From Apibacter adventoris (lineage in GTDB: Bacteria > Bacteroidota > Bacteroidia > Flavobacteriales > Weeksellaceae), in assembly GCF_002964975.1 (NCBI RefSeq), contig NZ_PSZM01000040.1, positions 1 through 64,000 of the forward strand: a stretch of 64,000 bases of DNA, given 5' to 3'. Under the pieces are notes generated by a model that saw nothing but the letters and a program-made list of their open reading frames with translations, was not told the DNA's origin and did no database searches. This document shows positions 26,565-44,955 of the stretch, in pieces. The position numbers and the translations under genes are program-made. Every line of letters begins with the position of its first letter. The stretch's first letter is position 1.

Positions 26565-27290
26565 TTATGATAAATGCATAGATTTTTCCATGATTATAGC
26601 TTTAGGAAAAAGAATATTATTTTCCAGATGAATATGTTTATGAAGTTTTTGCTCAAAGTCATCTAGCATTGCAAAAGAAACTTTATAAGTATTGCATGCT
26701 TCAGGGGGAGGAGTATATCCTTTAGAAAGTTCAGATATTCTTTTGAATCTTTCTCCTTCCACAGAATGGTCATCCATCATCATTCTTATAGGATTTTCTA
26801 CACTTCCGAAATGAGCATTTTCTAAAGGAATTTGTGTAATTTGAGCATGTACCATATTTCTTATGAAAGGAAATAATATCATTTCTTCCTTTTGTAAATG
26901 ATTTAATAAATCATTGGAAGATTTAGAAAACAAATCAAAAATTTCAAATAATTCAGGATGTCTTTCCCCATGAACTTTCTGTACTTTATTTAAAAATTGA
27001 GATAATGGTGGAATTTTTTCACGTATGTATCTATGAAATGTTTTTTCAATATAATCTGCTAGTAGATCTAAGGGCCAAGACTGATAATCAATATTTTCAT
27101 TTTTACTATCAGTAACAATTTCATTTAATTTATTCTTTAATTCATCAATATTAATGGATTTTCTTTCACAAGCCTGTTCTATTGTACGATCACCCTTACA
27201 ACAAAAATCAATTTTATATTTAGAGAAAACGGCAGCAGTTCTGAAGTCATCTGCAACAATGCTACCAATAGTTCCATCAAAGTTTTTCAT
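26565..27290 (-). CDS. ric: Iron-sulfur cluster repair di-iron protein (Ric/ScdA/YtfE)
   Basis: Ric proteins repair Fe-S clusters damaged by nitric oxide or oxidants. The 241-residue protein has the N-terminal ScdA domain (TIGSIVADDFRTAAVFSKYKIDFCCKG, split here only for description) with the CC pair at about residues 30-31. A hemerythrin-like four-helix bundle follows, with metal-ligand histidines in TFHRYI, NHLQKEEMILFPFI, MDDHSVEGE and LHKHIHLENNILFP. It lies 13 bp after an NsrR-like regulator, so both are probably one transcript that responds to nitrosative stress from the adjacent nitrate pathway. Confidence 0.93.
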   Translation of the reverse strand: MKNFDGTIGSIVADDFRTAAVFSKYKIDFCCKGDRTIEQACERKSINIDELKNKLNEIVTDSKNENIDYQSWPLDLLADYIEKTFHRYIREKIPPLSQFLNKVQKVHGERHPELFEIFDLFSKSSNDLLNHLQKEEMILFPFIRNMVHAQITQIPLENAHFGSVENPIRMMMDDHSVEGERFKRISELSKGYTPPPEACNTYKVSFAMLDDFEQKLHKHIHLENNILFPKAIIMEKSMHLS

Positions 27291-27303
27291 ACTATTATTT
27301 TTT

Positions 27304-27750
27304 TTAAATTAACTCTTTATATTTTAAAAATGTTATACCCTTATTTATATTCATTGCAAGTTCTTCAACGCTGATTGAAGTAAGCATATCTTTCAGTTGC
27401 TTCCTAATAGGTTTAAATTTATTATGTACAGGACAAGGGGAATGTTCAGAACATTTAGGAAGGCCAAGAATACAACCTTCATAAATAGAATCTCCATCTA
27501 TAGCTTTTACTATATCTAAAAGTTTTATGTTGGAGATATGTTCTTTTTTCACACTAAATCCGCCAGAAGGGCCCTTAGTAGAATTAATTATTTCATGCTT
27601 AACAAGTATTTGTAAAATTTTTGCTGTAAATGCTTCTGGTGAATTTATTTGATTAGAAATTTCTTTAATACCAGGTTTGTTTCCCTTGTAGTATTCTGAA
27701 ATAATAAATAATGTAGCACGTATTCCATATTCGCAACTTTTTGAAAACAT
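27304..27750 (-). CDS. Rrf2-family regulator, NsrR-like
   Basis: This 148-residue protein has an N-terminal winged helix (MFSKSCEYGIRATLFI, EISNQINSPEAFTAKILQIL, GPSGGFSV wing). A cysteine cluster, Cys93-x6-Cys100-x5-Cys106, would hold an Fe-S cluster as in NsrR/IscR proteins. The coupling to ric suggests sensing of nitric oxide. The divergent intergenic region has a 9-bp perfect inverted repeat over its own -33 region, fitting autoregulation. It could instead be an IscR-type sensor; the ric linkage makes NsrR-like more likely. Confidence 0.9.
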   Translation of the reverse strand: MFSKSCEYGIRATLFIISEYYKGNKPGIKEISNQINSPEAFTAKILQILVKHEIINSTKGPSGGFSVKKEHISNIKLLDIVKAIDGDSIYEGCILGLPKCSEHSPCPVHNKFKPIRKQLKDMLTSISVEELAMNINKGITFLKYKELI

Positions 27751-28499: not shown

Positions 28500-28588
28500 A
28501 AATTGTGAAAATCTAAATATGTTATAATTATTTGTTTAATTAATTAACAATTAAAAAACTATATATAATTATTAAAAGTACATTTTGT

Positions 28589-30064
28589 ATGGCTGCTAAT
28601 TTATTTCAATCTCACAAAATTTTATTTTTAAATACCTTAGCTTTTACTATTTGTTTTGCCTGTTGGACTCTTAATGGGGTTTTGGTAACTTATTTGGTAG
28701 ACAAAGGTATTTTTAACTTTACTGTAGTACAAACCGGATGGTTGTTAGGGATTCCTGTTTTAACAGGATCAATTTTAAGACTTCCGATAGGAATTATGAC
28801 AGACAAATTTGGAGGTAAATATGTTTTTTCAGGGTTACTACTTTTTTGTTCAATACCTTTATTCCTTTTACCTTTTGCACAAACATTTACCACATTTGCC
28901 ATATTAAGTTTCCTTTTTGGGATCATAGGTACCAGTTTTGCAATCGGGGTAGGATACACTTCAGTTTGGTATCCTAAAGAATGGCAGGGAAGAGCGTTAG
29001 GTATTTTTGGAATGGGAAATGCAGGGGCAGCTTTAACTACTTTTTTAGCTCCGACATTATTAAACTATTTTTCTAAAAGTGATCCTGAAAATGGATGGAA
29101 AATGCTTCCGGTTACCTATGGAAGTATTTTAGTAATTATTGGGGTTTTGTTTATATTATTTGCTAAAAATAAAAAACCTGCAAGTAGCTCCAAAACTATT
29201 GTACAATTATTAACACCTCTAAAAAAAGGTAGAGTATGGCGTTTTGGATTGTATTACTTATTGGTTTTTGGTTTTTTTGTAGCCTACTCTCAATGGTTAG
29301 TTCCAAATTTTATGAATGTGTACGGAATAAGTTTGGTAATGGCAGGAATGTTTGCCTCTTTCTTTAGTTTACCCTCAGGCGTTATACGTGCATTTGGAGG
29401 GTATCTTTCAGATAAATATGGAGCAAGAAAAGTTATGTATTGGGTTTTAGGATCTTCTATTGTACTGAGTTTTCTGCTTATGTTTCCTAAAATGGATATT
29501 TATACAGATGGACCGGGCGTTTTATCTTCTAATACAGGAATAGTTACACAAGCTACAGCTTCACACATATCAGTAGATAAAAGAGAATATTCAGTAAAAG
29601 AAAGACATTCACAAAAAGTAAACGAAACAAGTTTTCTGCCAGTTCAAACCTCCTGGCAGGAAGTAGTAGTGAAAGAAAATCAATCCATAAAAAAGAAAGA
29701 CCTCTTAGCCAAAGGAGTAACTGAAATAAAATTTGGAGCCAACATGTGGGTATATCTTACTTTGGTTATTTTAATCGGAATCTCTTGGGGAATAGGAAAA
29801 GCTGCTGTTTACAAACATATTCCCGAGTATTTTCCTAATGAAGTAGGAGTAGTAGGAGGTATGGTTGGACTTATTGGAGGCTTAGGAGGATTTATAGGGC
29901 CTATCGTATTTGGGTATTTATTGAATTATACAGGATTATGGACGAGTTCCTGGATGTTTATATTGATCATATCTTTAATTTGTCTTATTTACATGCATCG
30001 TGTAATAATAAAGATGTTACGTGAGAAAATGCCTGAAATATCCAGAGATATTGAAAAAAAATAA
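28589..30064 (+). CDS. narK: NarK-type nitrate/nitrite MFS transporter with extra loop domain
   Basis: This 491-residue member of the nitrate/nitrite porter family of MFS has about 12 membrane helices, with the MFS loop GIMTDKFGGK, a first signature GMGNAGAALTTFLAP and a second signature VGLIGGLGGFIGP. About 80 hydrophilic residues (roughly 305-385) interrupt the helices in the second half. They carry patterns of a small beta barrel (GIVTQATASHISV, then VVVKENQSIKKKDLLAKG). With the next gene it forms a NarK1/NarK2-like pair, presumably nitrate import and nitrate/nitrite exchange; the assignment of each is inference. Confidence 0.9.
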   Translation: MAANLFQSHKILFLNTLAFTICFACWTLNGVLVTYLVDKGIFNFTVVQTGWLLGIPVLTGSILRLPIGIMTDKFGGKYVFSGLLLFCSIPLFLLPFAQTFTTFAILSFLFGIIGTSFAIGVGYTSVWYPKEWQGRALGIFGMGNAGAALTTFLAPTLLNYFSKSDPENGWKMLPVTYGSILVIIGVLFILFAKNKKPASSSKTIVQLLTPLKKGRVWRFGLYYLLVFGFFVAYSQWLVPNFMNVYGISLVMAGMFASFFSLPSGVIRAFGGYLSDKYGARKVMYWVLGSSIVLSFLLMFPKMDIYTDGPGVLSSNTGIVTQATASHISVDKREYSVKERHSQKVNETSFLPVQTSWQEVVVKENQSIKKKDLLAKGVTEIKFGANMWVYLTLVILIGISWGIGKAAVYKHIPEYFPNEVGVVGGMVGLIGGLGGFIGPIVFGYLLNYTGLWTSSWMFILIISLICLIYMHRVIIKMLREKMPEISRDIEKK

Positions 30065-30104
30065 ATCGAAAAAATAAAATTAATTAAATATAAAGATTAT
30101 AATT

Positions 30105-31460
30105 ATGGCTACATGGCTTAAAGAATGGAAACCGGAAGATGCTAATTTTTGGGAATCTACAGGAAAAAAAATTGCCTGGAGAACACTTACAATAACTACC
30201 ATTTCATTAACACTGTCTTTTATAGTTTGGTATTTGATGAGCGGAATAGTAACTAAACTTCCTGGAGTAGGATTTAATTTCTCAGAAAAGGAATTGTTTT
30301 GGTTAGCATCCCTTCCAGGCTTAGCAGCAGGAACTTTAAGAATAATACATACCTTTTTAATTCCTATTTATGGTACAAGACATACCATAACTATATCAAC
30401 ACTTATAAAATTAATACCGGTTGTAGGAATTGTGTTGGCAGTAATGAATCCCAACACACCCTTTTGGGTATTTGCCATTTTAGCCTTTACTACAGGCTTT
30501 GGTGGAGGTGATTTTTCTTCCTTTATGCCTTCAACCAATATGTTTTTTCCAGCCCGATTAAAAGGAACCGCATTAGGTGTTCAGGCTGGTATAGGAAACT
30601 TTGGTGTAAGTATAGTACAGTTTTTAACTCCTGCATTATTAGGTATAGCCATTGTAGGAGCTCCGCAAATATTAAAAACTGTAGATCCTGTATCTCATGA
30701 AGTAATAACTAAACCTCTTTATTTACAAAGCCCTGTAATAATTTATATTCCAATATTAATTATTATGACCCTTGTTTGTTGGTTTGGATTAAAAAGTATT
30801 CCGTTAAAATCTTCTTTTAAAGAACAATTAGAAATTTTTAAAATTAAACATACCTGGTTTTGTACCATTACTTATTTTATGACATTTGGTACTTTTTCAG
30901 GATTATCAGCAGCCTTTCCTTTAATGATTAAGTCATTATATGGAGATTTTCCCGGAGCACCAGATCCTTTACAATATGCATTTTATGGACCTTTAATTGG
31001 TTCTGCTAGTAGAGTGTTGTTTGGATTCGTTGCCGATAAAGTAGGAGGAGCACTTTTAACCACTATTACTGGAATTGGATTTATTGGTTGTATTATAGTT
31101 ATGATTTCAATGGGGTTAGTAGCTCCAACATCAATTGATCAATTTCCTTATTTTCTTATTACTATGTTATTAATTTTCTTTTTTTCAGGAATAGGAAATG
31201 CAGGAACATTTAGACAATATCCGATTATATTTAAAGATAATCCTGTGCATGCAGCTGGTGTAATAGGCTGGACAGCTGCTATAGCTGCATATGGACCATT
31301 TATTTTTTCAATAATCATTGGAGCTGTTTTACATTCTTCCAAAGAATTAGGTATGAAAAATGCAAATAGCTTTTTTTGGGGATTATTGATCTTTTCTGTT
31401 GCTGCTACAATTATTAATTGGTATTACTATCAAAGAAAAGGAGCTGAAAGACCTAGTTAA
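30105..31460 (+). CDS. narK: NarK-type nitrate/nitrite MFS transporter, second
   Basis: This 451-residue MFS transporter of the nitrate/nitrite porter family has 12 predicted helices; the first signature reads GVQAGIGNFGVSIVQFLTP and the second lies near AAGVIGWTAAIAAYGPF. It lacks the extra loop of the preceding transporter. It starts 40 bp downstream of it and 17 bp before the cytochrome b gene, so it is in the same transcript. Likely the nitrate/nitrite antiporter type, which suits respiration in the cytoplasm. Confidence 0.9.
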   Translation: MATWLKEWKPEDANFWESTGKKIAWRTLTITTISLTLSFIVWYLMSGIVTKLPGVGFNFSEKELFWLASLPGLAAGTLRIIHTFLIPIYGTRHTITISTLIKLIPVVGIVLAVMNPNTPFWVFAILAFTTGFGGGDFSSFMPSTNMFFPARLKGTALGVQAGIGNFGVSIVQFLTPALLGIAIVGAPQILKTVDPVSHEVITKPLYLQSPVIIYIPILIIMTLVCWFGLKSIPLKSSFKEQLEIFKIKHTWFCTITYFMTFGTFSGLSAAFPLMIKSLYGDFPGAPDPLQYAFYGPLIGSASRVLFGFVADKVGGALLTTITGIGFIGCIIVMISMGLVAPTSIDQFPYFLITMLLIFFFSGIGNAGTFRQYPIIFKDNPVHAAGVIGWTAAIAAYGPFIFSIIIGAVLHSSKELGMKNANSFFWGLLIFSVAATIINWYYYQRKGAERPS

Positions 31461-31477
31461 CACTAACAGATTAAATT

Positions 31478-32533
31478 ATGTTTAAATTATTTCAGAATCT
31501 GAATAAAGATGCTTTACTAAAAGCGATTATAGTTTGTATTATTGCTATTATTTTGGTGATTGTAGGTTCAAGAGATTTACAGAATTTTGATGCAGCATTA
31601 ATAGCTTATCTTTTTGGAACTATTTTTTCCATATTCGGAGTTACGTATAGATATTCCATTTGGTTACAAAGACCACCCACTAAAATGTATTGGAAACGTT
31701 CTTGGCAATTTTTATTTAGTAAACATTTTCTTGAATATACAGGAAAAGGTATAAGCCTTTTTTTCCAAAATATATTATTTCAAAAATTTATCTATCCAAG
31801 AGGAAAAATCCGTTGGATTGGTCATTTTTTGTTAGCTACCGGATGTATGATCGCATTTTGTATAACCATACCTTTAACTTTTGGTTGGATACATTTTACT
31901 TTAGAATCTGGTACTCTTACAACTTATGAAGCACATATGTTTGGTTTTAAAGTTTTAAATTTTGAATTAGGGTCAATTATAGCTTTCATAACATTCCATG
32001 CCTTAGTATGGTGTTCTATATTAGTAATTTTAGGTTCCATAATGATGATGAAACGTAGAATGACTAACGGTGGGCTAATTTCTACTCAGACATTTGAAGG
32101 AGACTGGCTTCCATTAATTCTTCTTATAGCTATATCAGTAACCGGGATTGGAATATCTTTCGATTATACATATTTAGAAGGAAAAACTAATCAATTTATG
32201 TCTGTTGCCCATGCAATTACTGTTATATTATTCTTAGTGTGGATTCCGTTCGGAAAATTTTTTCACATTTTTCAAAGACCTGCACAGTTAGGAGCTAATA
32301 TCTATAAAACCGTAGGAATAAAAAATGGAATGGCAGTATGTCCACACACAGGAGAAGAGTTTGCTACTAAAATGCATATAGAAGATTTAAAAACTGTAAC
32401 AAATGAATTAGGGTTTGATTTTACTATGGATAATGGTGAAAGTCATTTAGACTACAGCCCTGAAGGAAAAAGATCAGCATTAGCCCAAGCACATTTAAAA
32501 GCAAGAGAAGAATCAGGAAGTTTTTTTGGTTAA
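31478..32533 (+). CDS. NarI-like membrane cytochrome b subunit (putative quinol oxidase)
   Basis: This 351-residue protein has about six membrane helices (near 15-35, 38-57, 115-137, 165-190, 211-227, 243-262) and a soluble C-terminal tail of about 80 residues. Four histidines lie in or at the ends of helices: His116, His174, His245 and His263. The last two are 18 residues apart, the same spacing as His187/His205 of E. coli NarI. I infer a di-heme b subunit that takes electrons from menaquinol for the adjacent reductase. It is not a clear member of a family I can name, and an alternative is a membrane anchor without heme. Confidence 0.65.
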   Translation: MFKLFQNLNKDALLKAIIVCIIAIILVIVGSRDLQNFDAALIAYLFGTIFSIFGVTYRYSIWLQRPPTKMYWKRSWQFLFSKHFLEYTGKGISLFFQNILFQKFIYPRGKIRWIGHFLLATGCMIAFCITIPLTFGWIHFTLESGTLTTYEAHMFGFKVLNFELGSIIAFITFHALVWCSILVILGSIMMMKRRMTNGGLISTQTFEGDWLPLILLIAISVTGIGISFDYTYLEGKTNQFMSVAHAITVILFLVWIPFGKFFHIFQRPAQLGANIYKTVGIKNGMAVCPHTGEEFATKMHIEDLKTVTNELGFDFTMDNGESHLDYSPEGKRSALAQAHLKAREESGSFFG

Positions 32534-32556
32534 AAAAATAAAAAGGAAAATAAGTA

Positions 32557-34779
32557 ATGGCTAAATTACCAGTACAAGACAATATAATTATAGAAAAATT
32601 TGGACCTCACAAACAATATACTCCAAAAAATGGTTTTAAAGGGGTATCAGAGCCAGATAAATTAGTGAAGACCCATTGTTGTTTTTGTGGAATGCAGTGC
32701 GGTATTCAGCTGAAAGTAAAAGATAATAAAGTAGTAGGTTTTGAACCTTGGAAAGAATTCCCTTTCAATCAAGGAAGACTTTGTCCAAAAGGAGTTCAAA
32801 GATATTTACAAAATAATCATCCTGATCGGTTACTTTCTCCACTAAAAAGAGTAGAAGGAGTAGGATTTGAACCTATTAATTGGGAAGAAGCTATAGATAC
32901 CACAGTGTCACAAATTCAGAAAATCCAAGAAAAATACGGAAGAGATGCTATGGCTATGTTATCAGGAGTCTCCCTTACCAATGAAAAAAGTTATATGATA
33001 GGTAAGTTTGCCAGAGTAGCGTTAAAAACTAAAAATTTGGATTATAACGGACGTTTATGTATGGTAAGTGCCGGTACAGGGAATAAAAAAGCGTTTGGAT
33101 TAGATCGAGCTTCCAATAACTGGTCTGATTTAAAACATGCAGAAGTAATTATTGTTACAGGAGCCAATGTAAGTGAAACATTTCCTACTTTAACTTATCC
33201 GATTTGGGAAGCAAGAGATAACGGAGCTAAGTTGATTGTTATAGATCCTAGAATAATTCCATTGGCAAGGACTGCAGATTTACATTTAGATTTACGCCCC
33301 GGTACAGATTCTGCCTTATATGGAGCTATGTTAAAAGTTTTATTTGATAATAATTGGGTAGATAAAGAATTTATAGAAAAATATACTTCGGGTTATGAAG
33401 AAACATTAGCTTCTGTTCAAGATCATACGTTAGAATGGGCTGAGAAAATAACAGGAGTTTCAGCAGAGAAAATATACAAGGCTGCAGAAATATGGGGAAA
33501 AGCTAAAACTAGTTTTTTATTACATGCAAGAGGAATTGAGCACCACACAAAAGGAGTAGATAACGTAGTAGGATGTATAAATTTAGTATTAGCTACCGGA
33601 AGAATAGGAAAGCCCTATTGCGGATATGCTACAATTACCGGTCAAGGTAATGGACAGGGAGGAAGAGAACATGGGCATAAATGCGATCAATTACCGGGAA
33701 ACAGAGACATAGAAAATCCTGAACATCGTAAATATATATCAGCAGTTTGGGGAATAGAGGAAAAAGATTTACCAGGAAAAGGATATAGTGCTTGGGAAAT
33801 TATTGAAGCTATACATAGAGGAGAAATTAAAGGACTTATATCTATTTGCTTTAATCCGTTAGTGTCACTTCCCAATAATAATTATGTACGTTCAGCTCTT
33901 GAAAAATTAGAATTTTATGTAGCTATAGATTTCTTTTTAAGTGAAACCGGAAGACATGCAGATATAATTTTAGCAGGATCTCTACAAGAAGAAGAAGAAG
34001 GAACGGTTACAACAGCAGAAGGTAGAGTTGTTCGTATCAATCAGGCTATAAATCCTCCGGGAAAAGCAAGGAAAGATAGTGAAATAATTAAAGAAATTGC
34101 AAGTCGTTTAGGAGCCGGAGATAAATTTAATTTTACAACAGCTGAAGATATATTTAATGAATTAAGAGTAGCATCTAAAGGCGGAACAGCAGATTATTAT
34201 GGAATTACTTATGAAAAGATAGAAAAAAATATGGGTGTATTTTGGCCTTGTCCAACATTAGACCATCCCGGAACACCAAGACTTTGGGAAAATTATAAAT
34301 TTAAAACACCCGATGGAAAAGCTCACTTTAATCCTGCTCCCTATAAAGATCCTTCAGAAGTAACTGATGAGGAATATCCGGTTACACTGACTACTGGAAG
34401 AGTAGTTTCACAATATTTGAGTGGATCACAAACCCGTAGAATAGGTAAATTAGTAGATCAATATCCAGAACCTTTATTAGAAATTCATCCAGAACTGGCA
34501 AATAAATATGGAATTATAGATCGGGATTTAATTAAAGTAGTAACTCGCAGAGGTGAAGCTATTTTTCCGGCAAATGTTGTGGAAACTATAAGAAAAGATA
34601 CTGTATTTATACCTTATCATTGGGGAGGAATTCATTCTGCTAATATATTAACCATTAGTAGCTTAGATCCTATGTCTAAAATTCCAGAGTTCAAAGTATG
34701 TGCCTGTAAATTAATAAATACAGGTGAAAAAGCCTCGAAATCAGATAAATCCAATGCATTTCAAAGTTTTGATGAATAA
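32557..34779 (+). CDS. Molybdopterin nitrate reductase, Nas/Nap-type catalytic subunit
   Basis: The 740-residue Mo-bisMGD oxidoreductase reduces nitrate to nitrite (inferred from family and context). The N-terminal 4Fe-4S motif is Cys41-x2-Cys44-x3-Cys48 and Cys76 in GRLCPKG. Cys168 in GRLCMVSAG is the expected molybdenum ligand, as in NapA and NarB and unlike the Asp of NarG. Further cofactor contacts are [13 protein letters not shown] and the C-terminal [17 protein letters not shown]. There is no Tat signal, so it should stay in the cytoplasm. It lies between a cytochrome b gene and a ferredoxin-type subunit, unlike typical assimilatory or periplasmic systems. Confidence 0.9.
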
Positions 34780-34796
34780 CTAAAGAAGAAAAGATT

Positions 34797-35366
34797 ATGA
34801 CAATTACAGAATATAATAAAAATATGGGTTTTTTTGTGGATATGCAAAGATGTATTGGTTGCCATGCATGTGAAATGGCTTGTGCGGAATGTGAAACAAA
34901 TGGACAGGAGAGTATGATCCATATTCATTATGTTGACAGAAAACACACAATACAAACTACCGTACAGGTATGTATGCATTGTGAGGATCCTGTCTGTGCT
35001 AATGTTTGTCCGGCAGATGCCATAACTAAAGATAACTTAGGGGTTGTCCATTCAGCAAATACAGCACGTTGTATAGGTTGCTCCAATTGTGTAATGGCAT
35101 GTCCATTTGGAGTACCTAATAAAAAAGAAGAAGCAGAATTAATGATGAAGTGCAATATGTGTTATGATCGAACCAGTGCAGGTTTAAAACCAATGTGTGC
35201 CACAGTTTGTCCAAGTGGAGCCTTATTTTACGGTACATTAGAAGAAATAGAAGAAAAACGTCCACATAGTACCCCTGTAAATAAGTTTATTTTTGGAAAA
35301 CAAGAAGTTATAACAAAAGTAAATGTTATGATGCCTAAAGGGAGTAAAGAATTAAAAGTTCATTAA
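34797..35366 (+). CDS. Four-cluster ferredoxin-type electron transfer subunit
   Basis: The 189-residue protein of the DmsB/NrfC/NarH-like family passes electrons between a membrane quinol oxidase and a molybdoenzyme. Cysteine groups are [35 protein letters not shown] and [20 protein letters not shown], sufficient for four clusters. It has no signal peptide, matching the signal-less catalytic subunit. Spacing to its neighbours is 17 and 23 bp. Confidence 0.9.
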
Positions 35367-35389
35367 TTAACATAAAAGACTATACAGAA

Positions 35390-35899
35390 ATGTCACATAA
35401 CAAAGAAAAAGAAACCCCGTTTTGGAAATCAGATTTTCCTATAAAACAAGAGGAATCTACTCATGTTTCCAGACGCGAGTTTGCTAAATTTTTATGCCTT
35501 TTGTCTGGAAGTTTAGCAGTAGGAAATGGAATGATAGCAGCCAAATCTCTTTTATTTTCAAAAGATAAAAAATATCAGGAACACTTAATTTGTTCAACTT
35601 CTGAAATACCTATTGGGGAAATGAAATCATTTGTAATTAATGATAATCATAAAGTGCCCTATATATTAATACATTTAGGAGAAGATAAATGGCGCTGCTT
35701 TGAACAGAAATGTACACATCTTTCCTGTGCAGTTTTGTATAAACATGAAATAAACAAAATAGTGTGTCCTTGTCATAAAGGTTTTTTTGATCCAGAAACA
35801 GGAGAAGTATTACAGGGGCCTCCACCAAGACCTTTACCCCAACTATCTGTAGTTATTAGAGATGGAAATGTTTATGTAACAGAAAAAGAAAAGAAATAA
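35390..35899 (+). CDS. Rieske 2Fe-2S protein with Tat-type signal anchor
   Basis: The 169-residue protein has an N-terminal twin-arginine motif SRREFAKFL (residues 27-35) and a hydrophobic segment to about 52. A Rieske domain follows, with Cys108-Thr-His110 and Cys126-x2-His129 as cluster ligands. Cys113 and Cys128 (CTHLSC, CPCH) are in the position of the disulfide found in high-potential Rieske proteins of bc-type complexes. The Tat-like start predicts the domain on the periplasmic side. How it connects to a cytoplasmic reductase is unclear; it may be an additional step from quinol. Confidence 0.88.
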   Translation: MSHNKEKETPFWKSDFPIKQEESTHVSRREFAKFLCLLSGSLAVGNGMIAAKSLLFSKDKKYQEHLICSTSEIPIGEMKSFVINDNHKVPYILIHLGEDKWRCFEQKCTHLSCAVLYKHEINKIVCPCHKGFFDPETGEVLQGPPPRPLPQLSVVIRDGNVYVTEKEKK

Positions 35900-35903
35900 A
35901 ATT

Positions 35904-36176
35904 ATGAGTAATTTTCGAGAAGCACAAAATACAGCACATCCCAGTAAAACTAATACATTAATGTCAGCTATTATAATAATACTTATTTTAATTCTGAGTA
36001 TACAAATATGGCTAATGTATGGTGCATTGAACAATGCCTTGGCTGATAATCAGCCTTTTGCATGGGCTACTTTTGGAGGATCTTTATTTCTTTTTATTTC
36101 AGCATTGTTTTTATTAAAATATTTGCCAGATGCTCGTAAAAGCGAAGCTAAAGATTCCGAAAATAAATATGAATAA
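35904..36176 (+). CDS. Small two-helix membrane protein of the nitrate operon
   Basis: This 90-residue protein has two hydrophobic helices (about 21-43 and 55-73), a polar N-terminus and a charged C-terminus. No cofactor residues are obvious. It follows the Rieske gene by 4 bp and overlaps the moaA start by 8 bp, so it is firmly in the operon. It may be a structural subunit of the membrane complex. I do not recognise the family. Confidence 0.75.
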   Translation: MSNFREAQNTAHPSKTNTLMSAIIIILILILSIQIWLMYGALNNALADNQPFAWATFGGSLFLFISALFLLKYLPDARKSEAKDSENKYE

Positions 36177-37152
36177 TTTACAGGATACATATAATAGAAT
36201 TCATAACTATTTAAGAATATCTCTTACGGATAGCTGTAATTTTCGTTGCTTATATTGTATGCCCGAAGAAAATATGCAATGTCTTTCCCAAAAAGATTTG
36301 ATGCATCCTCAAGAAATATTTACCATAGCACAGACCTTTGTAGATTATAATGTCAATAAAATTCGTCTTACCGGAGGAGAACCTTTGGTAAGACATGATT
36401 TTTCAGAAATAGTACAATGTCTAGCACAATTGCCTGTAAAACTAACTTTGACAACCAATGGAGTATTGATTCATAAATATGTAGATTTATTTAAAAATGT
36501 AGGTATTAAGTCTATAAATATTAGTATTGATAGTTTAAATGAAAGTACATTTAAATCAATTACTAAAAGAAATGCATTATCGCAAGTATGGAAAAATATA
36601 CATCTTTTAGTAAAAGAAAATTTTCACGTAAAACTTAATGTTGTAGCAATGAGAGGAATTAACGAACATGAAATTACAGATTTCGTGAATTTAACCTATA
36701 GTTTGCCTTTACAAGTTCGGTTCATAGAATTTATGCCTTTTAGCGGAAATCGGTGGGAAAAAAATAGGGTATTAACCACCACTGAAATGTTACATAATAT
36801 AGAAAAACATTTTTCTATTGTTAAATTACAAGATTCTATACACAATACTGCAAAAAAATATCAGGTATTAGGTTCTAAAGGCACCTTTGCTTTTATTACA
36901 ACTATGAGTCAACCTTTTTGTTCAGGTTGTAACCGCATGCGAATAACGGCAGATGGTAAAATGAAAAATTGTCTTTTCGGAAAAGAAGAATTTGATATTT
37001 TAGGAGAATTACGAGCAGGTAGAAATATAAAACCTGTCATAGAGAATTGTGTATATAAGAAACATAAAAAAATGGGGAGACAATTTCAAAATTTCAAAAA
37101 TTTAAATCCTAATCATTTAGAGAATAGAAGTATGATAAAGATAGGCGGATAA
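36169..37152 (+). CDS. moaA: GTP 3',8-cyclase MoaA
   Basis: This radical SAM enzyme catalyses the first step of molybdenum cofactor synthesis, together with MoaC. I place the start at 36169, 39 bp inside the longest frame: it gives the typical MoaA N-terminus and an ATGAATAA overlap with the previous stop. The 327-residue protein has Cys23-x3-Cys27-x2-Cys30 for the SAM cluster, RLTGGEPLVR, and a C-terminal cluster motif CSGCNRMRITADGKMKNC. It ends in Gly-Gly, conserved in this family and needed for the reaction in characterised members. Confidence 0.94.
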   Translation: MNNLQDTYNRIHNYLRISLTDSCNFRCLYCMPEENMQCLSQKDLMHPQEIFTIAQTFVDYNVNKIRLTGGEPLVRHDFSEIVQCLAQLPVKLTLTTNGVLIHKYVDLFKNVGIKSINISIDSLNESTFKSITKRNALSQVWKNIHLLVKENFHVKLNVVAMRGINEHEITDFVNLTYSLPLQVRFIEFMPFSGNRWEKNRVLTTTEMLHNIEKHFSIVKLQDSIHNTAKKYQVLGSKGTFAFITTMSQPFCSGCNRMRITADGKMKNCLFGKEEFDILGELRAGRNIKPVIENCVYKKHKKMGRQFQNFKNLNPNHLENRSMIKIGG

Positions 37153-37168
37153 TTTTTTTATAACCGTT

Positions 37169-38380
37169 ATGCTAAAAAAAACCTATTGGAATATGAACTT
37201 TATAACAGTAAAGAAAGCTAAAGAAATAATAGAAAAGGAAATTTTTAAAACTGTAGAAAATAAAATTTCACTTAAAGATTCCTTACATTATTATACAGCA
37301 CAAAATATATATGCTCCCTTAGATGTTCCAAATTTTGATAATTCAGCTATGGATGGGTATGCCTTTTCTTATAAAGATTATGAAGAATGTAAAAAAATAA
37401 AAGTATCATATACTATTCAGGCTGGCGATAGTAATATACCGAGTTTACGTTCGGGGGAAGCGGTCCGTATTTTTACAGGAGCTCCCATTCCTCATGGAGC
37501 AGATACAGTAATAATGCAGGAAAAAATATCTTTAAAAAATGATTATCTTATTTTTAATGATTCACAAATTAAAAAAGGACAAAACATACGTTTACGTGGT
37601 TCTCAATCAAAAAAAGGAGATCTATTGATTTCTTCAAATACAAAAATTACAGCTGGAGTTTTAGGTTTTTTAGCAGGGTTTGGTTTTACTCATTTATATG
37701 TTAATACTTATCCGAAAATAGGAATAATAGTAACTGGTAATGAATTAACAGAAGTAGGTAACCCCTTAGAATTTGGTCAAATTTATGAAACTAATTCATG
37801 GGCATTACAAGCAGCTTTACAAGAATTAAACATACTCCCGACAATTTTAATAAAAGTAAAAGACAATAATGAATTGACCTTACAAGCCATAAAAAAAGCG
37901 TGGGAAAAAGCAGATATTCTACTTATTACAGGAGGGATATCTGTAGGAGATTATGATTTTGTACAAGAGGCATTAGAAAATTTAGGTACTAAAAAACTCT
38001 TTTATAAAATTCAGCAAAAACCAGGGAAACCTATGTATTTTGGTAAAAAAGAAAATCAGTTTGTTTTTGCACTTCCCGGAAATCCGGCATCTGTTCTGAC
38101 TTGTTTTTATCAATATGTACAACCATTTATAGAAGGGATAAAAGGCAGAAAAAATTTTTATGAAGAAAAATATTTAGGGGCTTTGTCTTCAGATTTTGAA
38201 AAAAACAACAACTTAACTTTATTTTTAAAAGCATATGAAAAAGATGGGAATGTGAAAATTTTATCAGCTCAAGAATCTTATAAATTGGATAGTTTTTCTA
38301 AATCAAATTGTATAGCAGAAATAGATGGAGGACCTAGAATCTTGAAACAAGGAGAAAAAATATCATTATGGAAAATCTGA
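37169..38380 (+). CDS. moeA: Molybdopterin molybdenumtransferase MoeA
   Basis: MoeA inserts molybdate into adenylated molybdopterin. It has 403 residues with DVPNFDNSAMDGYAF, FTGAPIPHGADTVIMQE, TGNELTEVG, TGGISVGDYDF and QQKPGKPM followed by LPGNPAS. An alternative start nine codons in (MNFITVKKAKEII, 37193) fits the family better and cannot be excluded. The end overlaps the next gene by 13 bp. Confidence 0.94.
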   Translation: MLKKTYWNMNFITVKKAKEIIEKEIFKTVENKISLKDSLHYYTAQNIYAPLDVPNFDNSAMDGYAFSYKDYEECKKIKVSYTIQAGDSNIPSLRSGEAVRIFTGAPIPHGADTVIMQEKISLKNDYLIFNDSQIKKGQNIRLRGSQSKKGDLLISSNTKITAGVLGFLAGFGFTHLYVNTYPKIGIIVTGNELTEVGNPLEFGQIYETNSWALQAALQELNILPTILIKVKDNNELTLQAIKKAWEKADILLITGGISVGDYDFVQEALENLGTKKLFYKIQQKPGKPMYFGKKENQFVFALPGNPASVLTCFYQYVQPFIEGIKGRKNFYEEKYLGALSSDFEKNNNLTLFLKAYEKDGNVKILSAQESYKLDSFSKSNCIAEIDGGPRILKQGEKISLWKI

Positions 38381-38691
38381 AAATAGAAGGTTTTATATGG
38401 ATAGAAAGCTCAGAAGGGCTGAAGATAGGAAAAGGAAGAGCTATGTTATTAGAATATATTGAAAAAAGCGGCTCTATAGCTGAAGCAGCAAGACAAATAA
38501 AGATTCCATATCGAAAAGCTTGGAATATGATAAAAGAAATGAATAAAAATAATTCTGAAGCTTTAGTAATTAAAACAATTGGAGGAAAGGATGGAGGAAG
38601 TTCTGAATTAACTAAAGAAGGGAAACGGTTACTTTTAGAATATAAAAGGCTAAGTAATAAATTTATCCAATTTAAAAAAGAGCAGATATGA
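38368..38691 (+). CDS. ModE-type winged-helix regulator without molybdate-binding domain
   Basis: This 107-residue protein is only the DNA-binding domain of ModE-like proteins: KIGKGRAMLLEYIEKSGSIAEAARQ (helix-turn-helix), PYRKAWNMIKEMN, and a wing with GGKDGGSSELTKEGKRLL. The TOBE domains that bind molybdate in E. coli ModE are absent. It overlaps moeA by 13 bp and mobA by 4 bp. It may regulate the island, but how it would sense molybdate is open. Confidence 0.85.
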   Translation: MENLKIEGFIWIESSEGLKIGKGRAMLLEYIEKSGSIAEAARQIKIPYRKAWNMIKEMNKNNSEALVIKTIGGKDGGSSELTKEGKRLLLEYKRLSNKFIQFKKEQI

Positions 38692-39254
38692 TTGGGGATG
38701 CATATATATTAGCAGGTGGGAAAAGTTCCCGAATGGGAGAAGATAAAGGATTAAAATTACTTAATGGATTTCCTATTATACAATATGAAATAAATGTATT
38801 AACTACTTGCTTTTCTGAAGTAAAAATTAATACACAAAATTTAGAATATAAGAAATTTAATTTAGAAATAGTTCCCGATATTGTTTCTAATGCAGGTCCC
38901 ATAGGAGGAATTTATGCCTCACTTAAAAACTCTGGAAAGGATATATTTGTTATAGCTTGCGATATGCCTTTTATTACAAAAGAAGCAATTACTTATCTCA
39001 TAAAAAACCATACAGAAGCTTCTACTACTGTAGCTGGATATAACAAAAAAATACAACCTTTATTTGGAATATACAGCCAGCAAATACTTCCTTTATTAGA
39101 AGAAAAAATTAATAAAAAAAATTTTAAAATGAGAGAACTTATACAGGATATCCAAGGAGAAATTATAGAAATGAATCCTGTGTTTTCCTCAAAAGTATTT
39201 GTAAATATTAACAATCTGGAAGATTTTACTCAAATAGAAACAAAAAAGATATAA
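38688..39254 (+). CDS. mobA: Molybdenum cofactor guanylyltransferase MobA
   Basis: MobA attaches GMP to Moco, giving the bis-MGD form used by the nitrate reductase. It has 188 residues with the nucleotidyltransferase motif ILAGGKSSRMGEDKGL, then PDIVSNAGPIGGIYASL and IACDMPFI. The start overlaps the preceding stop by 4 bp, and its last base is the first of moaD. MobA in this operon fits a bis-MGD enzyme of the DMSO reductase family. Confidence 0.92.
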   Translation: MIGDAYILAGGKSSRMGEDKGLKLLNGFPIIQYEINVLTTCFSEVKINTQNLEYKKFNLEIVPDIVSNAGPIGGIYASLKNSGKDIFVIACDMPFITKEAITYLIKNHTEASTTVAGYNKKIQPLFGIYSQQILPLLEEKINKKNFKMRELIQDIQGEIIEMNPVFSSKVFVNINNLEDFTQIETKKI

Positions 39255-39487
39255 TGAAGAAAATTAAAATTTTTGGAAATTTAACAGATGTTTTCAAGAC
39301 AAACGAATATGTATTTAAAGAAGAGATAAATACAGTTTCCGAATTAAAAGAAAAATTAGTTATACAATTTCCAGAATTAGCCTCTAGTAAATTTTTAATA
39401 GTGGTTAATAATGAATATATAAATGATAAAAAAATTATAGAATCAGATGCAGAAATAGCTTTACTTCCCCCTTATTCGGGAGGATAA
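39254..39487 (+). CDS. moaD: Molybdopterin synthase small subunit MoaD
   Basis: MoaD is the sulfur carrier of molybdopterin synthase. The 77-residue ubiquitin-like fold ends ALLPPYSGG; the terminal Gly-Gly is adenylated by MoeB and then thiocarboxylated. It overlaps mobA by one base; moeB follows after 12 bp. Confidence 0.92.
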   Translation: MKKIKIFGNLTDVFKTNEYVFKEEINTVSELKEKLVIQFPELASSKFLIVVNNEYINDKKIIESDAEIALLPPYSGG

Positions 39488-39499
39488 AAAAATCAGAAA

Positions 39500-40588
39500 A
39501 TGAATACACATAGATATAATAGACAAATAATTTTACCTGAGTTTGGAGAAAATTCTCAACAGAAACTTATAAAATCGAAAGTTCTTGTCATAGGAGCAGG
39601 AGGTTTAGGCTGTCCGGTCTTGCAATTTTTAGCTACAGTAGGTGTAGGTCATATAGGAATTGCAGATGATGATAAGGTAGATATATCTAACTTACATCGG
39701 CAAATTTTATATAATGAAAATTCCATAGGAAAAATTAAAGCAAATGAAGCAAAAGAGAAACTTCATCAAATAAATTCCGAAATAGAAATTACAGCTTATT
39801 CGTATAAAATTACTCATGATAATATTTTACCCTTAATAGAACAATATGACATTATTGTAGATGGTACAGATAATTTTCAGATACGTTATTTACTTAACGA
39901 TGCTTGTAAATTGTTGAAAAAACCTTTGGTTCATGGAGCTATCTACCAATATGAAGGTCAGGTATCAGTTTTTAACATAGAAAAAAATGGACAAATAACT
40001 AATTATAGAGATTTATTTCCCGTTGCACCAAAATCCTTTGAAGTTCCAAACTGTAATCAATCAGGAGTATTAGGTACACTTTCTGGTTTAATAGGAACAG
40101 TTCAAGCTAATGAAGTAATTAAACTAATCACAGGAATAGGAGACCTATTAGTACATAAACTGTATCTCATAAATGTGCTTAATTATGAAACAAGAATCAT
40201 TAAATATAATAAATTAGAAATAGAGATGGGTCCTAAAAATAAAGAGGAATTTTTAACTATGAATTATGATACATTTTGTAATATATCCTCCTTTTCGAAA
40301 AAAGAAATTGCTAATAAGGAAGAATTGCGTTCTCTTTTAGCTAGGGAAAATTCAATATTAATTGATGTTCGGAATGAAGGAGAAATTCCAGTAATAAATA
40401 AATATGAATATATAAGAATTCCTTTAACGGAATTTTCACATAGACTAGAAGAATTAGAAAACTATACAACCATTATTTTTGTTTGTCAATCGGGAGTAAG
40501 GAGTGAACAAGCCTTTAAACTTGTACAACAAGAATATCCTCAAAAAGATATCTTCCATATTTATAAAGGAGTAAAAACCATACTATAG
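39500..40588 (+). CDS. moeB: MoaD adenylyltransferase MoeB with C-terminal rhodanese domain
   Basis: This 362-residue ThiF/MoeB-type E1-like enzyme activates the MoaD C-terminus. The nucleotide-binding GAGGLGCPVLQFLA, the DDDKVDISNLHRQILY stretch and the catalytic-region PNCNQSGVLGTL are present. A rhodanese domain (about 265-362) with active loop CQSGVRS would supply sulfur. The zinc cysteines of E. coli MoeB are lost: the CxxC before LFP reads NYRD here, and the second pair is also missing. The fusion makes MoaD charging self-contained. Confidence 0.92.
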   Translation: MNTHRYNRQIILPEFGENSQQKLIKSKVLVIGAGGLGCPVLQFLATVGVGHIGIADDDKVDISNLHRQILYNENSIGKIKANEAKEKLHQINSEIEITAYSYKITHDNILPLIEQYDIIVDGTDNFQIRYLLNDACKLLKKPLVHGAIYQYEGQVSVFNIEKNGQITNYRDLFPVAPKSFEVPNCNQSGVLGTLSGLIGTVQANEVIKLITGIGDLLVHKLYLINVLNYETRIIKYNKLEIEMGPKNKEEFLTMNYDTFCNISSFSKKEIANKEELRSLLARENSILIDVRNEGEIPVINKYEYIRIPLTEFSHRLEELENYTTIIFVCQSGVRSEQAFKLVQQEYPQKDIFHIYKGVKTIL

Positions 40589-40589
40589 A

Positions 40590-41039
40590 ATGAAAACAAT
40601 AAAAATAAAAAACCCATTTGTTGATGGTCCCGTTTCTCTTGGATTTATAGCTGAAAGTATTCAAAAACATAGTTCAAAAACCCAAATAGGAGGGCATAGT
40701 ATTTTCTTAGGGCAGGTAAGAAATGATAAAAAAGAGGGAAAAGAAGTTACAGCAATAGAATTTACCGCATATCAGGAAATGGCAATACAGAAATTAGTCC
40801 AGATACGAGAAGAAATTTTTGTTAAATACAACTTAGAGTGCATGCATGTATATCATAGTTTAGGAAAAATAAAAAAAGGAGGAATTTGTTTATTTGTATT
40901 TACTTCTTCTAAACATAGGAAACCTGCCATAAAAGCCTGTGATGAAATGGTGGAAAGAATAAAAAAAGAAATACCTATTTGGGGAAAAGAGATTTATAAT
41001 GATGATACCCATACATGGAAAGAAAATATATATGAGTAA
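40590..41039 (+). CDS. moaE: Molybdopterin synthase catalytic subunit MoaE
   Basis: MoaE inserts the dithiolene sulfurs into precursor Z using MoaD thiocarboxylate. It has 149 residues with GGHSIFLGQVRNDKKEGKEV, IEFTAYQEMA, HSLGKIKKGG, SSKHRKPAIKACDEMV and IPIWGKEIY carrying the conserved lysines. It follows moeB after one base. Confidence 0.92.
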   Translation: MKTIKIKNPFVDGPVSLGFIAESIQKHSSKTQIGGHSIFLGQVRNDKKEGKEVTAIEFTAYQEMAIQKLVQIREEIFVKYNLECMHVYHSLGKIKKGGICLFVFTSSKHRKPAIKACDEMVERIKKEIPIWGKEIYNDDTHTWKENIYE

Positions 41040-41227
41040 TTTAATTAAAGAAAAATAACACTATCTAGCTTTTTACATATAGGAAACATTAAATCAATAG
41101 TTATCCGTTAATATTCTGGCTTTAAGTTGGGAAAATTTACTTATAAAACGATTAGAAACAGAAATCGTTGAAAACTTACAAAGACGTTTATTTAAAAAAT
41201 AGTAAAATCTAAATTTTTATAAATATT
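41040..41227 (+). other. Gap inside the molybdenum island
   Basis: These 188 bases between moaE and the porin gene are the largest gap in the run from narK to modC. A stretch from about 41105 to 41202 is open without a start codon and reads ILALSWENLLIKRL, then more polar helical sequence, to a TAG. It may be a remnant of a lost gene. No TAnnTTTG element or terminator was found. Confidence 0.35.
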
Positions 41228-42490
41228 ATGAATTATAAAAGACTACTTTTAGTTCTCTTTACATACTCATTATTAATAAATGTAAATATTTATGGTCAAT
41301 CTATAAAAATAGAAGGAGAATTGCGAACAAGGGGAGAATTCCGGGATGGATTCCGAGCTCCTTTGGCAGATAGTTTAAATCCTGCATTTGTAAACAATAT
41401 GAGAGCCCGTTTAACAGCTTTATATGAAACTAAAGAATATCGCATAAAAGTAACTGTGCAAGATACAAAAACCTATGGGTCAACAGGAATAAATAATACA
41501 GGAAATTCATTAGGTCTGTATGAAGCATGGGCAGAATATTTTTTCTCACCAAAATTTTCGGGCATATTAGGCCGTCAGACTTTAGAATATGATGATAATC
41601 GTTTATTTTCTTCAACTAATTGGAGTAATACTCCAATTGCTCATGACCTTTTGAAACTGAAATATGAATCATCTAAATTTAAAGTTCACTTAGGAGGAGC
41701 CTGGAATAATGCCAGTGATGTTTTATATGAATCGGTTTATGATAAAGGTTATCAATCATTATTATATAGTTGGGTACAAAAAACTTTTGAAAATTTTACC
41801 ACCTCATTTATATGGGTAAATGAAGGATTTCAAAGAAAAAATGAAACACAAAATCCTAAGACCTCCATATATAGAAATACAACAGGAATAAATGTAGAAA
41901 TGAAAAATAAAGAAATACCAATTTCATTTTATACAACCGGCTATTATCAATTTGGTTATGATCGGGATGATCATAAATTAGATGCATTTTTATTGGCATT
42001 AAAATCGCACTATAAATTTTCAGATAAAATAACAGCTATTTTTGGAGGAGATTATTTTTCAGGTACTAAATACAATGCTTCCAAAAATAAAGATTATACC
42101 TTTAATAAATTATATGGAGCCAATCATGCCTTTAATGGATCTATAGAATACTGGACAACTCCCCCTAGACAGGGACTAATAGATTTATATGGAGGAATAG
42201 AAATTAAAACTAATTCAAAATTAAAATTTTTAGGAAATTTTCACACCTTTTCTACTTCTCAAAAAATGAAAAATAGAGAAAATAAAGATATTGGATCTGA
42301 ATTTGATCTGCAAGTAGACTATAAACTTTCTCCTTCTTTATCTATTCAGGGAGGATGGAGTACCTATTTGAAAAACAGAGGTACAGAAATTATAAAAAAA
42401 CAAGAAGAAATAAACACTCATTTTCCACAATGGGCATATATAATGATAACAATTAAACCGGTTTTCTTTTCAACAATAAAAGAAAAATAA
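41228..42490 (+). CDS. Outer-membrane beta-barrel porin, alginate-export-like
   Basis: This 420-residue protein has a signal peptide (to about residue 23, INVNIYGQ) and a series of amphipathic beta strands with aromatic ends, finishing in a strand before the C-terminus (WAYIMITIKPVFFS). Motifs such as GELRTRGEFRDGF, ARLTALYETKEYRIKVTVQD, EAWAEYFFS and LGRQTLEYDDNRLFS are those of the alginate-export porin family. Alginate genes are absent; its position between moaE and moaCB suggests uptake of nitrate, nitrite or molybdate across the outer membrane, as inference. Confidence 0.82.
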   Translation: MNYKRLLLVLFTYSLLINVNIYGQSIKIEGELRTRGEFRDGFRAPLADSLNPAFVNNMRARLTALYETKEYRIKVTVQDTKTYGSTGINNTGNSLGLYEAWAEYFFSPKFSGILGRQTLEYDDNRLFSSTNWSNTPIAHDLLKLKYESSKFKVHLGGAWNNASDVLYESVYDKGYQSLLYSWVQKTFENFTTSFIWVNEGFQRKNETQNPKTSIYRNTTGINVEMKNKEIPISFYTTGYYQFGYDRDDHKLDAFLLALKSHYKFSDKITAIFGGDYFSGTKYNASKNKDYTFNKLYGANHAFNGSIEYWTTPPRQGLIDLYGGIEIKTNSKLKFLGNFHTFSTSQKMKNRENKDIGSEFDLQVDYKLSPSLSIQGGWSTYLKNRGTEIIKKQEEINTHFPQWAYIMITIKPVFFSTIKEK

Positions 42491-42523
42491 AAAATCAAAG
42501 ATATATAATAAAAAATATAATCA

Positions 42524-43435
42524 ATGGTAGATATAACATATAAAAATAAAACATTAAGAAAAGCTATAGCGCAAGCTATAGTCAAAGTAAGTTTGCTTGA
42601 TACTATTACTGCAATAAAGGAGAATAATGTTCCTAAAGGAAATGTTTTTGAAATGGCAAAAACTGCCGGATTATTTGCGGCTAAACGTACCAGTGATATG
42701 ATTCCGGATTGTCATCCCCTTCCTATAGAATATACATCGGTAAATTATGAAATAAATGATTTGCAAATAATTATCACCGTAGAAATAAGGACAATTTATA
42801 AAACCGGGGTAGAAGTAGAAGCTATGCATGCCGCATCCATTGTTGCACTTACTTTTTACGATATGTTGAAACCTATAGATAAAAATATAGAAATTCAAAA
42901 TATCAGATTAATTGAAAAAAAGGGAGGAAAATCTGATAAAAAAGATAAATTTAATATTCCTTTAATAGCATCAGTGATTGTTTGTTCCGATAGCATTTCT
43001 TCTGGCAGAAAGGAAGATCGTGCAGGGAAAATAATTATTGATAAACTATCTAAGTTTGGAATTGAAAATTCAGAATATATAATTATTCCGGATGAAATAA
43101 CTAAAATACAAGAATTAATAAAAACATATTGCGAAAAGAAAATAGATATGATTCTGATTACTGGGGGTACAGGATTATCCAAACGAGATGTAACTCCGGA
43201 AGCTGTAAAACCATTATTAGAAAAAGAAATACCCGGAGTAGCTGAAGCTATGAGAAGCTACGGACAAGATAGAACTCCTTTATCTATGCTTTCTCGTAGT
43301 GTTGCCGGATTGATAGGGAATACTCTTATAATTACACTACCGGGCTCTACAAAAGGAGCTGAGGAATCGATGGATTCAATATTTCCGGCAATTTTGCATA
43401 TTTTTAAAATTATAAATGGAGGTCAACACGAATAA
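42524..43435 (+). CDS. moaCB: Bifunctional MoaC-MoaB/MogA fusion
   Basis: The 303-residue fusion has an N-terminal MoaC domain (about 1-140), cyclic pyranopterin monophosphate synthase, with DMIPDCHPLPIE and VEVEAMHAASIVALTFYDM. A C-terminal MoaB/MogA domain (about 148-303) adenylates molybdopterin and has VIVCSDSISSG, LITGGTGLSKRDVTPEA and LPGSTKGAEES. The N-terminus is somewhat short compared with stand-alone MoaC. This explains the absence of separate moaC and mogA genes. Confidence 0.93.
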   Translation: MVDITYKNKTLRKAIAQAIVKVSLLDTITAIKENNVPKGNVFEMAKTAGLFAAKRTSDMIPDCHPLPIEYTSVNYEINDLQIIITVEIRTIYKTGVEVEAMHAASIVALTFYDMLKPIDKNIEIQNIRLIEKKGGKSDKKDKFNIPLIASVIVCSDSISSGRKEDRAGKIIIDKLSKFGIENSEYIIIPDEITKIQELIKTYCEKKIDMILITGGTGLSKRDVTPEAVKPLLEKEIPGVAEAMRSYGQDRTPLSMLSRSVAGLIGNTLIITLPGSTKGAEESMDSIFPAILHIFKIINGGQHE

Positions 43436-43462
43436 TAATAAATATTGTAATAATTTAATTCT

Positions 43463-44230: not shown

Positions 44231-44249
44231 GAAATAAATATAAAATAAA

Positions 44250-44927: not shown

Positions 44928-44955
44928 TTCGTAAGAAAAGTATGAAAATTCATAT

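Follow-up and report, generated by a model that had tools for sequence, protein, structure and literature searches.

In described nitrate reductases, the molybdenum ligand of NarG is Asp, the heme ligands of NarI are H56, H66, H187 and H205, and NapA is an exported protein. For the lineage of NasC, PMC7331816 states that no canonical four-cluster or membrane-anchor subunit is associated with any member of the clade comprising NasA/NasC, NapA, AioA and one lineage of formate dehydrogenases, and that the function of NasA/NasC is assimilation only; PMC10100899 also regards the role of NasC as exclusively assimilatory. In the haloarchaeal nar operon, as described in PMC2483277, Rieske and cytochrome b genes (narB and narC) stand beside those of the nitrate reductase (narGH and narJ), and a Q-cycle mechanism was proposed. 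The locus analyzed here is a five-gene cassette of Apibacter adventoris, located in a window of 64,000 nucleotides (contig NZ_PSZM01000040.1, positions 1 to 64,000; contig C40 of a 2.75 Mb genome assembled in 47 contigs), which encodes a membrane cytochrome b, a NasC-type molybdopterin catalytic subunit, a DmsB-like iron-sulfur (Fe-S) protein, a Rieske protein and a small DUF6755 protein, and which is preceded by two narK genes (Table 1). We consider it about 80% probable that the cassette specifies a membrane-bound menaquinol:nitrate oxidoreductase built on a catalytic subunit of the NasC lineage, and it appears to be a respiratory nitrate reductase of a type so far overlooked. An initial annotation made from the window alone had already suggested a separately assembled quinol-nitrate oxidoreductase, and this suggestion is now supported by the separation of the enzyme from formate dehydrogenases in a phylogenetic tree and by the presence of the gene set in two phyla.

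The same gene order was found in 19 distinct loci, comprising 15 loci of Bacteroidota (six of Apibacter including the window, one each of Xanthovirga aplysinae, a Candidatus Azobacteroides metagenome-assembled genome (MAG), G329 and G335, and five of genomes inferred to be Flavobacterium-like) and four Deinococcus plasmids. Three additional loci (L010, L011 and L012) duplicate the contigs of L027, L030 and L028, each pair entering the 19 only once; the survey with tblastn probes used all 22 loci with these duplicates included. The plasmids were detected by tblastn with the cytochrome b, which returned four records, all from Deinococcus and each with the identical five-gene order; in one of them (L057) the last gene is annotated as hypothetical, yet its product matches DUF6755. 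Each Deinococcus cassette is adjoined by a NarK homolog that is closer to narK2 than to narK1 of the window (54-57% with narK2), and NarK homologs were detected by tblastn in 21 of the 22 loci, the exception being the X. aplysinae locus (L013), whose cytochrome b lies about 0.6 kb from the contig end. Among 395 Bacteroidota genomes sampled in even draws, eight had a full-length cytochrome b and exactly the same eight had DUF6755, with a score of 26.6 bits against a cut-off of 27 in the genome of the window and scores above the cut-off in the other seven; weak cytochrome b matches in G095, G148, G284 and G315 (E 1e-6 to 6e-4) were excluded, none of which is accompanied by a DUF6755 match. At a finer scale, cytochrome b was present in six of nine genomes of the window's genus (its own counted) and was not found in the other three (G001, G004 and G005, with completeness of 93, 97 and 83%), while 37 of the 199 sampled genomes of one Flavobacterium-like genus had it, so that carriers are not rare. 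The constant order and the co-occurrence across genomes indicate that the cassette behaves as an evolutionary unit with a patchy distribution, whose taxonomic range should be taken as a lower bound because the contig scan for relatives used one query protein and reached close relatives only (five loci) and because the plasmid collection does not sample all phyla. Three of these 37 Flavobacterium-like carriers (G478, G514 and G521) showed two cytochrome b matches each. In G023, which belongs to the same family as the window, a decayed remnant of the cytochrome b, nasC and Fe-S genes with internal stops was observed (L041, 8506-10136) and excluded from the alignments.

The catalytic subunit was best matched by the NCBIfam model for NasC (NF047855, 853 bits, cut-off 1100 not reached); lower scores were given by the models for the formate dehydrogenase alpha subunit (TIGR01591, 628 bits, cut-off 666), NapA (282 bits for the best of its models) and narG (62.9 bits). 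In a tree of 33 proteins, for which the interrupted NasC of X. aplysinae had been excluded from an original 34, the 18 cassette enzymes formed a single clade (support 100/100) that joined six NasC proteins (from Paenibacillus, Mycobacterium, Streptantibioticus, Nonomuraea and two Deinococcus) at 100/100, and five formate dehydrogenases were placed outside this combined clade at 100/99. The six NasC proteins group together at 92/82 only; some branches of the tree are long, most notably that of E. coli NapA, seven rows have an unlike residue composition, and the other joins are unsure. Cys-Met occupies the molybdenum-ligand position in all 28 rows other than formate dehydrogenases, including 18/18 cassette enzymes, whereas in the five formate dehydrogenases the ligand position is followed by His and is itself filled by Cys in three and by an in-frame stop, presumably selenocysteine, in two. 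The question raised by the initial annotation, whether the enzyme would fall among formate dehydrogenases, is therefore answered by a separate placement. No hydrophobic stretch was detected in the window's NasC, nor was a twin-arginine start seen among the N-termini inspected, which agrees with the earlier description of a Nas-type subunit lacking an export signal. In the genome of the window, PF00384 matched only the cassette NasC, and no NarG or NapA was found besides it by this search.

Several features of individual catalytic subunits were also observed. In the Azobacteroides MAG (L014, 9001-12286), NasC is 85% identical to that of the window and was placed among the Apibacter proteins in the tree; the cytochrome b of the MAG is 63% identical and sits on a long unresolved branch, and the trees of the Fe-S and Rieske proteins group the MAG with Apibacter. 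A transfer of the cassette between insect-gut Bacteroidota appears likely, and a mosaic origin of the Azobacteroides cassette finds no support in the two other subunit trees (Fe-S and Rieske). The NasC of X. aplysinae (L013, 1725-3942) is interrupted twice in the assembly, with the neighboring cassette genes open.

The cytochrome b is only distantly related to known families. The Pfam NarI model reached 18.7 bits, below its cut-off of 22.9, and a profile built from the 19 members retrieved from the PDB, among matches up to E 1, only chains of E. coli NarI (E 0.0012-0.0019). When aligned by hhalign (83% probability), H245 fell on NarI H187 and H263 on NarI H205, so that their spacing of 18 is very probably homologous to that of NarI. 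H116, H245 and H263 are invariant in 19/19 members and H174 is kept in 18/19. H116 may be the counterpart of NarI H56, and the hydrophobic stretches and charged loops suggest a location close to the inner face of the membrane for H116 and H263, and close to its outer face for H174 and H245. With Ala126 at the position of NarI H66, binding of one heme appears well supported, that of a second heme seems only possible, and H174 would be a candidate for its ligation. The initial annotation had proposed a NarI-like di-heme protein, of which the likeness to NarI stands, but support was obtained for only three of the four NarI ligand positions. The bc-type cytochrome b family gave no match in Pfam scans of the 19 members at E 0.05, and in this respect the cassette differs from Rieske/cytochrome b (bc) complexes, with which it shares a bc-type Rieske protein. 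A phmmer search with a single cytochrome b returned antibody chains only, which were judged to be chance matches. In Deinococcus, the protein is annotated as 'MFS transporter' (L044, 7774-8886; also L045, L046 and L057) and has a zinc-ribbon-like C-terminal tail (C-x2-C ... C-x2-C), of whose Cys a single one (C288) remains in Bacteroidota. The Deinococcus gene is preceded by a small open reading frame (ORF), and that of L044 (65 amino acids, aa) has no Pfam match.

The remaining three subunits are more uniform. The Fe-S protein keeps 17 Cys in 19/19 members, namely the 16 expected for four clusters and C32, which bears out its earlier designation as a DmsB-like four-cluster protein. In the Rieske protein, the ligands C-x-H and C-P-C-H, both extra Cys and the GPP loop are invariant in 12/12 sequences; its best PDB match is the iron-sulfur subunit of cytochrome b6-f (E 2.4e-17), and bc/b6f-type proteins lead the matches, with those of arsenite oxidase next (4.2e-10). 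A twin-arginine motif, SRRxF, is present in 19/19 and TatC is encoded in the genome of the window, so export of the Rieske protein is likely, and the bc-type Rieske protein with a Tat (twin-arginine translocation) signal read from the window is upheld. The helix after this motif is moderately hydrophobic (maxima 1.41 to 1.81) and may be either cleaved or retained as an anchor, and an invariant W-K-x-D-F stretch upstream of the motif may link the Rieske protein with the subunits on the inner side. As all loci contain the Rieske gene and the genome of the window has no second Rieske match, its product is probably part of the cassette complex rather than of a bc1 complex; an NrfD-family gene, which is compatible with alternative complex III, is also present in this genome. 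The initial annotation did not count DUF6755 in its gene set, and this small protein (35904-36176) is a fifth conserved subunit, matched by PF20540 in 11/11 members scanned. A plasmid search with a single DUF6755 query returned nothing, although the Deinococcus members in that collection match the Pfam model, and no mention of DUF6755 was found in the literature searched.

A MopB subunit, a four-cluster ferredoxin and a membrane anchor, recognized here from genes and motifs, make up the subunit pattern of the complex iron-sulfur molybdoenzymes, and the five proteins would form one complex. The catalytic subunit, the 16-Cys ferredoxin and the NarI-like anchor together argue for a quinol-linked molybdoenzyme architecture. 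Compared with NarGHI of E. coli, the cassette shares the predicted cytoplasmic site of nitrate reduction, the Fe-S wire, a NarI-like cytochrome b with counterparts of H187 and H205, and transport by NarK. It differs from NarGHI in the absence of a NarG-type subunit from the genome of the window, in Cys at the ligand position, in a ferredoxin that has all 16 cluster Cys, in the missing counterpart of H66, and in the additional Rieske and DUF6755 proteins; moreover, E. coli NarJ had no match at the 22 cassette loci, to which this tblastn search was confined and where it would miss a distant homolog. Membership in the Nar family was rejected on the low narG score, the Cys ligand and the lack of NarJ matches. 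The Cys-Met motif is common to the cassette enzyme and E. coli Nap; in contrast to Nap, NapB, NapC and NapD probes had no match in the 22 loci and the NapA model scored far below that of NasC, and membership in the Nap family was rejected on these probes together with the N-terminal features described above. The nearest catalytic subunits outside the cassette clade are the NasC proteins of Paenibacillus, Mycobacterium and Deinococcus plasmids, which also have Cys-Met. Unlike the cassette, the four NasC records with annotation have nirB close to nasC and no annotated cytochrome b or four-cluster ferredoxin (the remaining two records are unannotated there), and the Mycobacterium locus has a Rieske-domain gene after nirB that looks like NirD. 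The haloarchaeal nar operon differs from the cassette in its NarG-type subunit and NarJ and in the size of NarC, which has 486 aa compared with 351 aa of the NarI-like protein (PMC2483277 for the operon).

In the proposed mechanism, nitrate would enter by the NarK transporters and be reduced at the cytoplasmic molybdenum site, and nitrite would leave the cell. Menaquinone is generally the quinone of Bacteroidota, and menaquinol would be oxidized by the NarI-like cytochrome b on its outer side, with release of protons to the outside. Electrons would then cross the membrane by one or more hemes, held close to the inner face by H116 and H263 and close to the outer face by H245 with a putative partner, perhaps H174, and would pass from heme to the four-cluster protein, the Fe-S cluster of NasC and finally molybdenum. 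The whole could be regarded as a redox loop of the NarGHI kind that is put together from other components, in which the Rieske protein would provide a further redox center at the outer face near the quinol site and DUF6755 would be a structural subunit. The quinol donor, heme number, electron path, proton release and sidedness in this scheme are predicted from sequence, and the Rieske cluster may relay electrons, branch them to cytochrome c or only tune the site.

Several observations weigh against a menaquinol:nitrate oxidoreductase of this kind. The scores of the NasC, DmsB and NarK proteins are all under the curated cut-offs, the position of NarI H66 is Ala126 in the alignment and H174 is replaced by Gly in G335, so the outer heme may be absent, and AlphaFold2 modeling of the cytochrome b from six sequences gave a mean predicted local distance difference test (pLDDT) score of 46.5, from which nothing was concluded. 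A NarGHI-like loop would need no Rieske protein. No denitrification gene was detected among the one, five and one flanking proteins scanned in L033, L034 and L037, CysI could in principle reduce nitrite too, and the activity, heme and growth attributed to the cassette are predictions.

The fate of nitrite bears on whether the enzyme serves respiration or instead represents a membrane-tethered assimilatory NasC nitrate reductase that supplies nitrite for biosynthesis. In the genome of the window, NrfA was not found, the sole NIR_SIR protein is sulfite reductase CysI with no NirB/NirA-type enzyme, and the best match to copper nitrite reductase (NirK) scored 20.8 bits against a cut-off of 296.3. 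At the 22 loci, tblastn probes for NarJ, NarI, NapB, NapC, NapD, NirB and NirD gave no match, whereas the NarG probe weakly matched 16 and the NarH probe all 22, with the matches falling on the nasC and Fe-S genes of the cassette itself (20-37% identity among the matches listed). The earlier claim that NarGHJ, NapBC and NirBD are absent is consistent with the single PF00384 match, with CysI and with these probes, but it does not extend to distant NarJ- or NapC-like proteins, which may escape tblastn since the NarI probe missed even the NarI-like protein of the cassette. Because NrfA is not found, CysI is alone, NirK matches weakly and NirB and NirD are missing from the loci, nitrite would probably be exported in Apibacter. 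Flanks were sampled by hand at five other Bacteroidota loci and for one Deinococcus ORF, and NirK above its cut-off was found near the cassette in two of the five (L031 and L036), which fits denitrification. A cytochrome c is encoded in the L031 flank. Products of the L036 flank include a COX1-family protein, a NorQ-type ATPase and a Crp-family regulator, together with a small cytochrome c that matches the cytochrome c-like domain of NorB below the threshold. The assimilatory function is favored by the 100/100 clade with NasC proteins, four of which adjoin nirB, but CysI as the sole NIR_SIR protein in the genome of the window, the lack of NirB and NirD matches at the 22 loci and the NirK genes of L031 and L036 make it improbable, and a respiratory use of the cassette is the better supported interpretation.

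The catalytic subunit might also be imagined to belong to a formate dehydrogenase linked to quinone, or to some other molybdoenzyme of its superfamily, since TIGR01591 comes close to its cut-off and the best PDB matches of the catalytic subunit are formate dehydrogenases, with no NasC or NarB among the best 60 of 64 matches. The position of formate dehydrogenases outside the clade, Cys-Met in place of Cys- or selenocysteine-His, and NarK homologs in nearly all loci render this very improbable, and membership among formate dehydrogenases was rejected. A further possibility, which is a version of the nitrate oxidoreductase and whose odds overlap with it, is that the Rieske protein of the same complex is a branch point where quinol electrons are bifurcated at the outer face, one passing inward via the NarI-like heme(s) to NasC in the cytoplasm and the other via the Rieske cluster to a periplasmic cytochrome c. 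The intact cluster site and twin-arginine motif, the status of the protein as sole Rieske match of the genome and the occurrence in L031 and L036 of cytochrome c genes or domains close to the cassette are in its favor; however, the five genes include neither a bc-type cytochrome b nor a cytochrome c, and in Apibacter the NrfD-family gene would fit alternative complex III for cytochrome c reduction and NirK does not exceed its cut-off, which leaves such branching rather doubtful. If it did occur, one complex would supply electrons both to nitrate reduction inside the cell and to nitrite/NO reduction (NirK, Nor) or an oxidase outside it.

If the cassette is indeed a menaquinol:nitrate oxidoreductase, an enzyme of the NasC lineage has been recruited into respiration, and its association with four-cluster and membrane-anchor subunits has been conserved in two phyla. 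Annotation as NasC would mark the carriers as assimilators, and surveys of nitrate respiration based on narG or napA would overlook any carrier lacking a further nitrate reductase, a situation checked in the genome of the window only. The outer Rieske protein also raises a testable question about the route of quinol electrons to a cytoplasmic nitrate site. Nitrate respiration in Apibacter is probably already known; Zhang et al. are said to have reported it in 2022. A term search of Kwong et al. 2018 (PMC5913662) gave no occurrence of 'nitrate', and no description of the five-gene complex was recognized in the literature searched. Provided that the five proteins work together, the cassette would be an exception to the statements quoted above from PMC7331816 and PMC10100899.

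Table 1. Features of the cassette and its surroundings in the window (positions in nucleotides).
Feature	Position	Strand	Remarks
RIC (ScdA/YtfE-type) Fe-S repair protein and Rrf2-family regulator	26565..27750	-	Divergent from the cassette; TIGR03652 246.3 bits, TIGR00738 78.2 bits, both above cut-off
narK1, NarK-family nitrate/nitrite transporter	28589..30064	+	TIGR00886, 196.8 bits, cut-off 311.7 not reached
narK2, second NarK-family transporter	30105..31460	+	TIGR00886, 257.8 bits, under cut-off
Distantly NarI-like membrane cytochrome b with about six hydrophobic stretches	31478..32533	+	
nasC-type molybdopterin catalytic subunit, predicted cytoplasmic, N-terminal Fe4S4 domain, Cys-Met Mo-ligand motif	32557..34779	+	
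DmsB-like electron-transfer subunit, Cys for four [4Fe-4S] clusters	34797..35366	+	TIGR02951 110.7 bits, cut-off 214.1
bc-type Rieske [2Fe-2S] protein with twin-arginine signal	35390..35899	+	
Small DUF6755 protein, two hydrophobic stretches, fifth member in all cassettes	35904..36176	+	PF20540
Mo cofactor/molybdate genes	36130..45612	+	moaA, moeA, modE-like, mobA, moeB-like, moaE-like, porin-like, moaCB, modA, modB-like, modC-like

All seven ORFs from narK1 to the DUF6755 gene (28589-36176) are uninterrupted. The molybdenum cofactor and molybdate genes that follow probably serve the cassette enzyme, because PF00384 has a single place in the genome, and their order is largely common to other cassette loci. 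NCBIfam models for moaA, moaCB and modA were matched above the cut-off and those for the ModE-like and MoaE-like proteins below it, the porin-like gene was unmatched, and moeA, mobA, moeB, modB and modC were named by eye. Other Apibacter loci, and L037 as well, have a pair like that of RIC and Rrf2 close to the cassette, and such proteins would be expected wherever nitrite and NO are formed. A protein with an FGE-sulfatase domain is encoded together with NirK near the cassette of L031 (3799-4656) and of L036 (5668-6447). In the window, a frameshift disrupts a second Rrf2-family regulator directly upstream of narK1 (28078-28500), which may be a real loss or an assembly error; the same position is open, with 129-140 aa, in the other Apibacter loci read (L010, L011, L012 and L026-L030).

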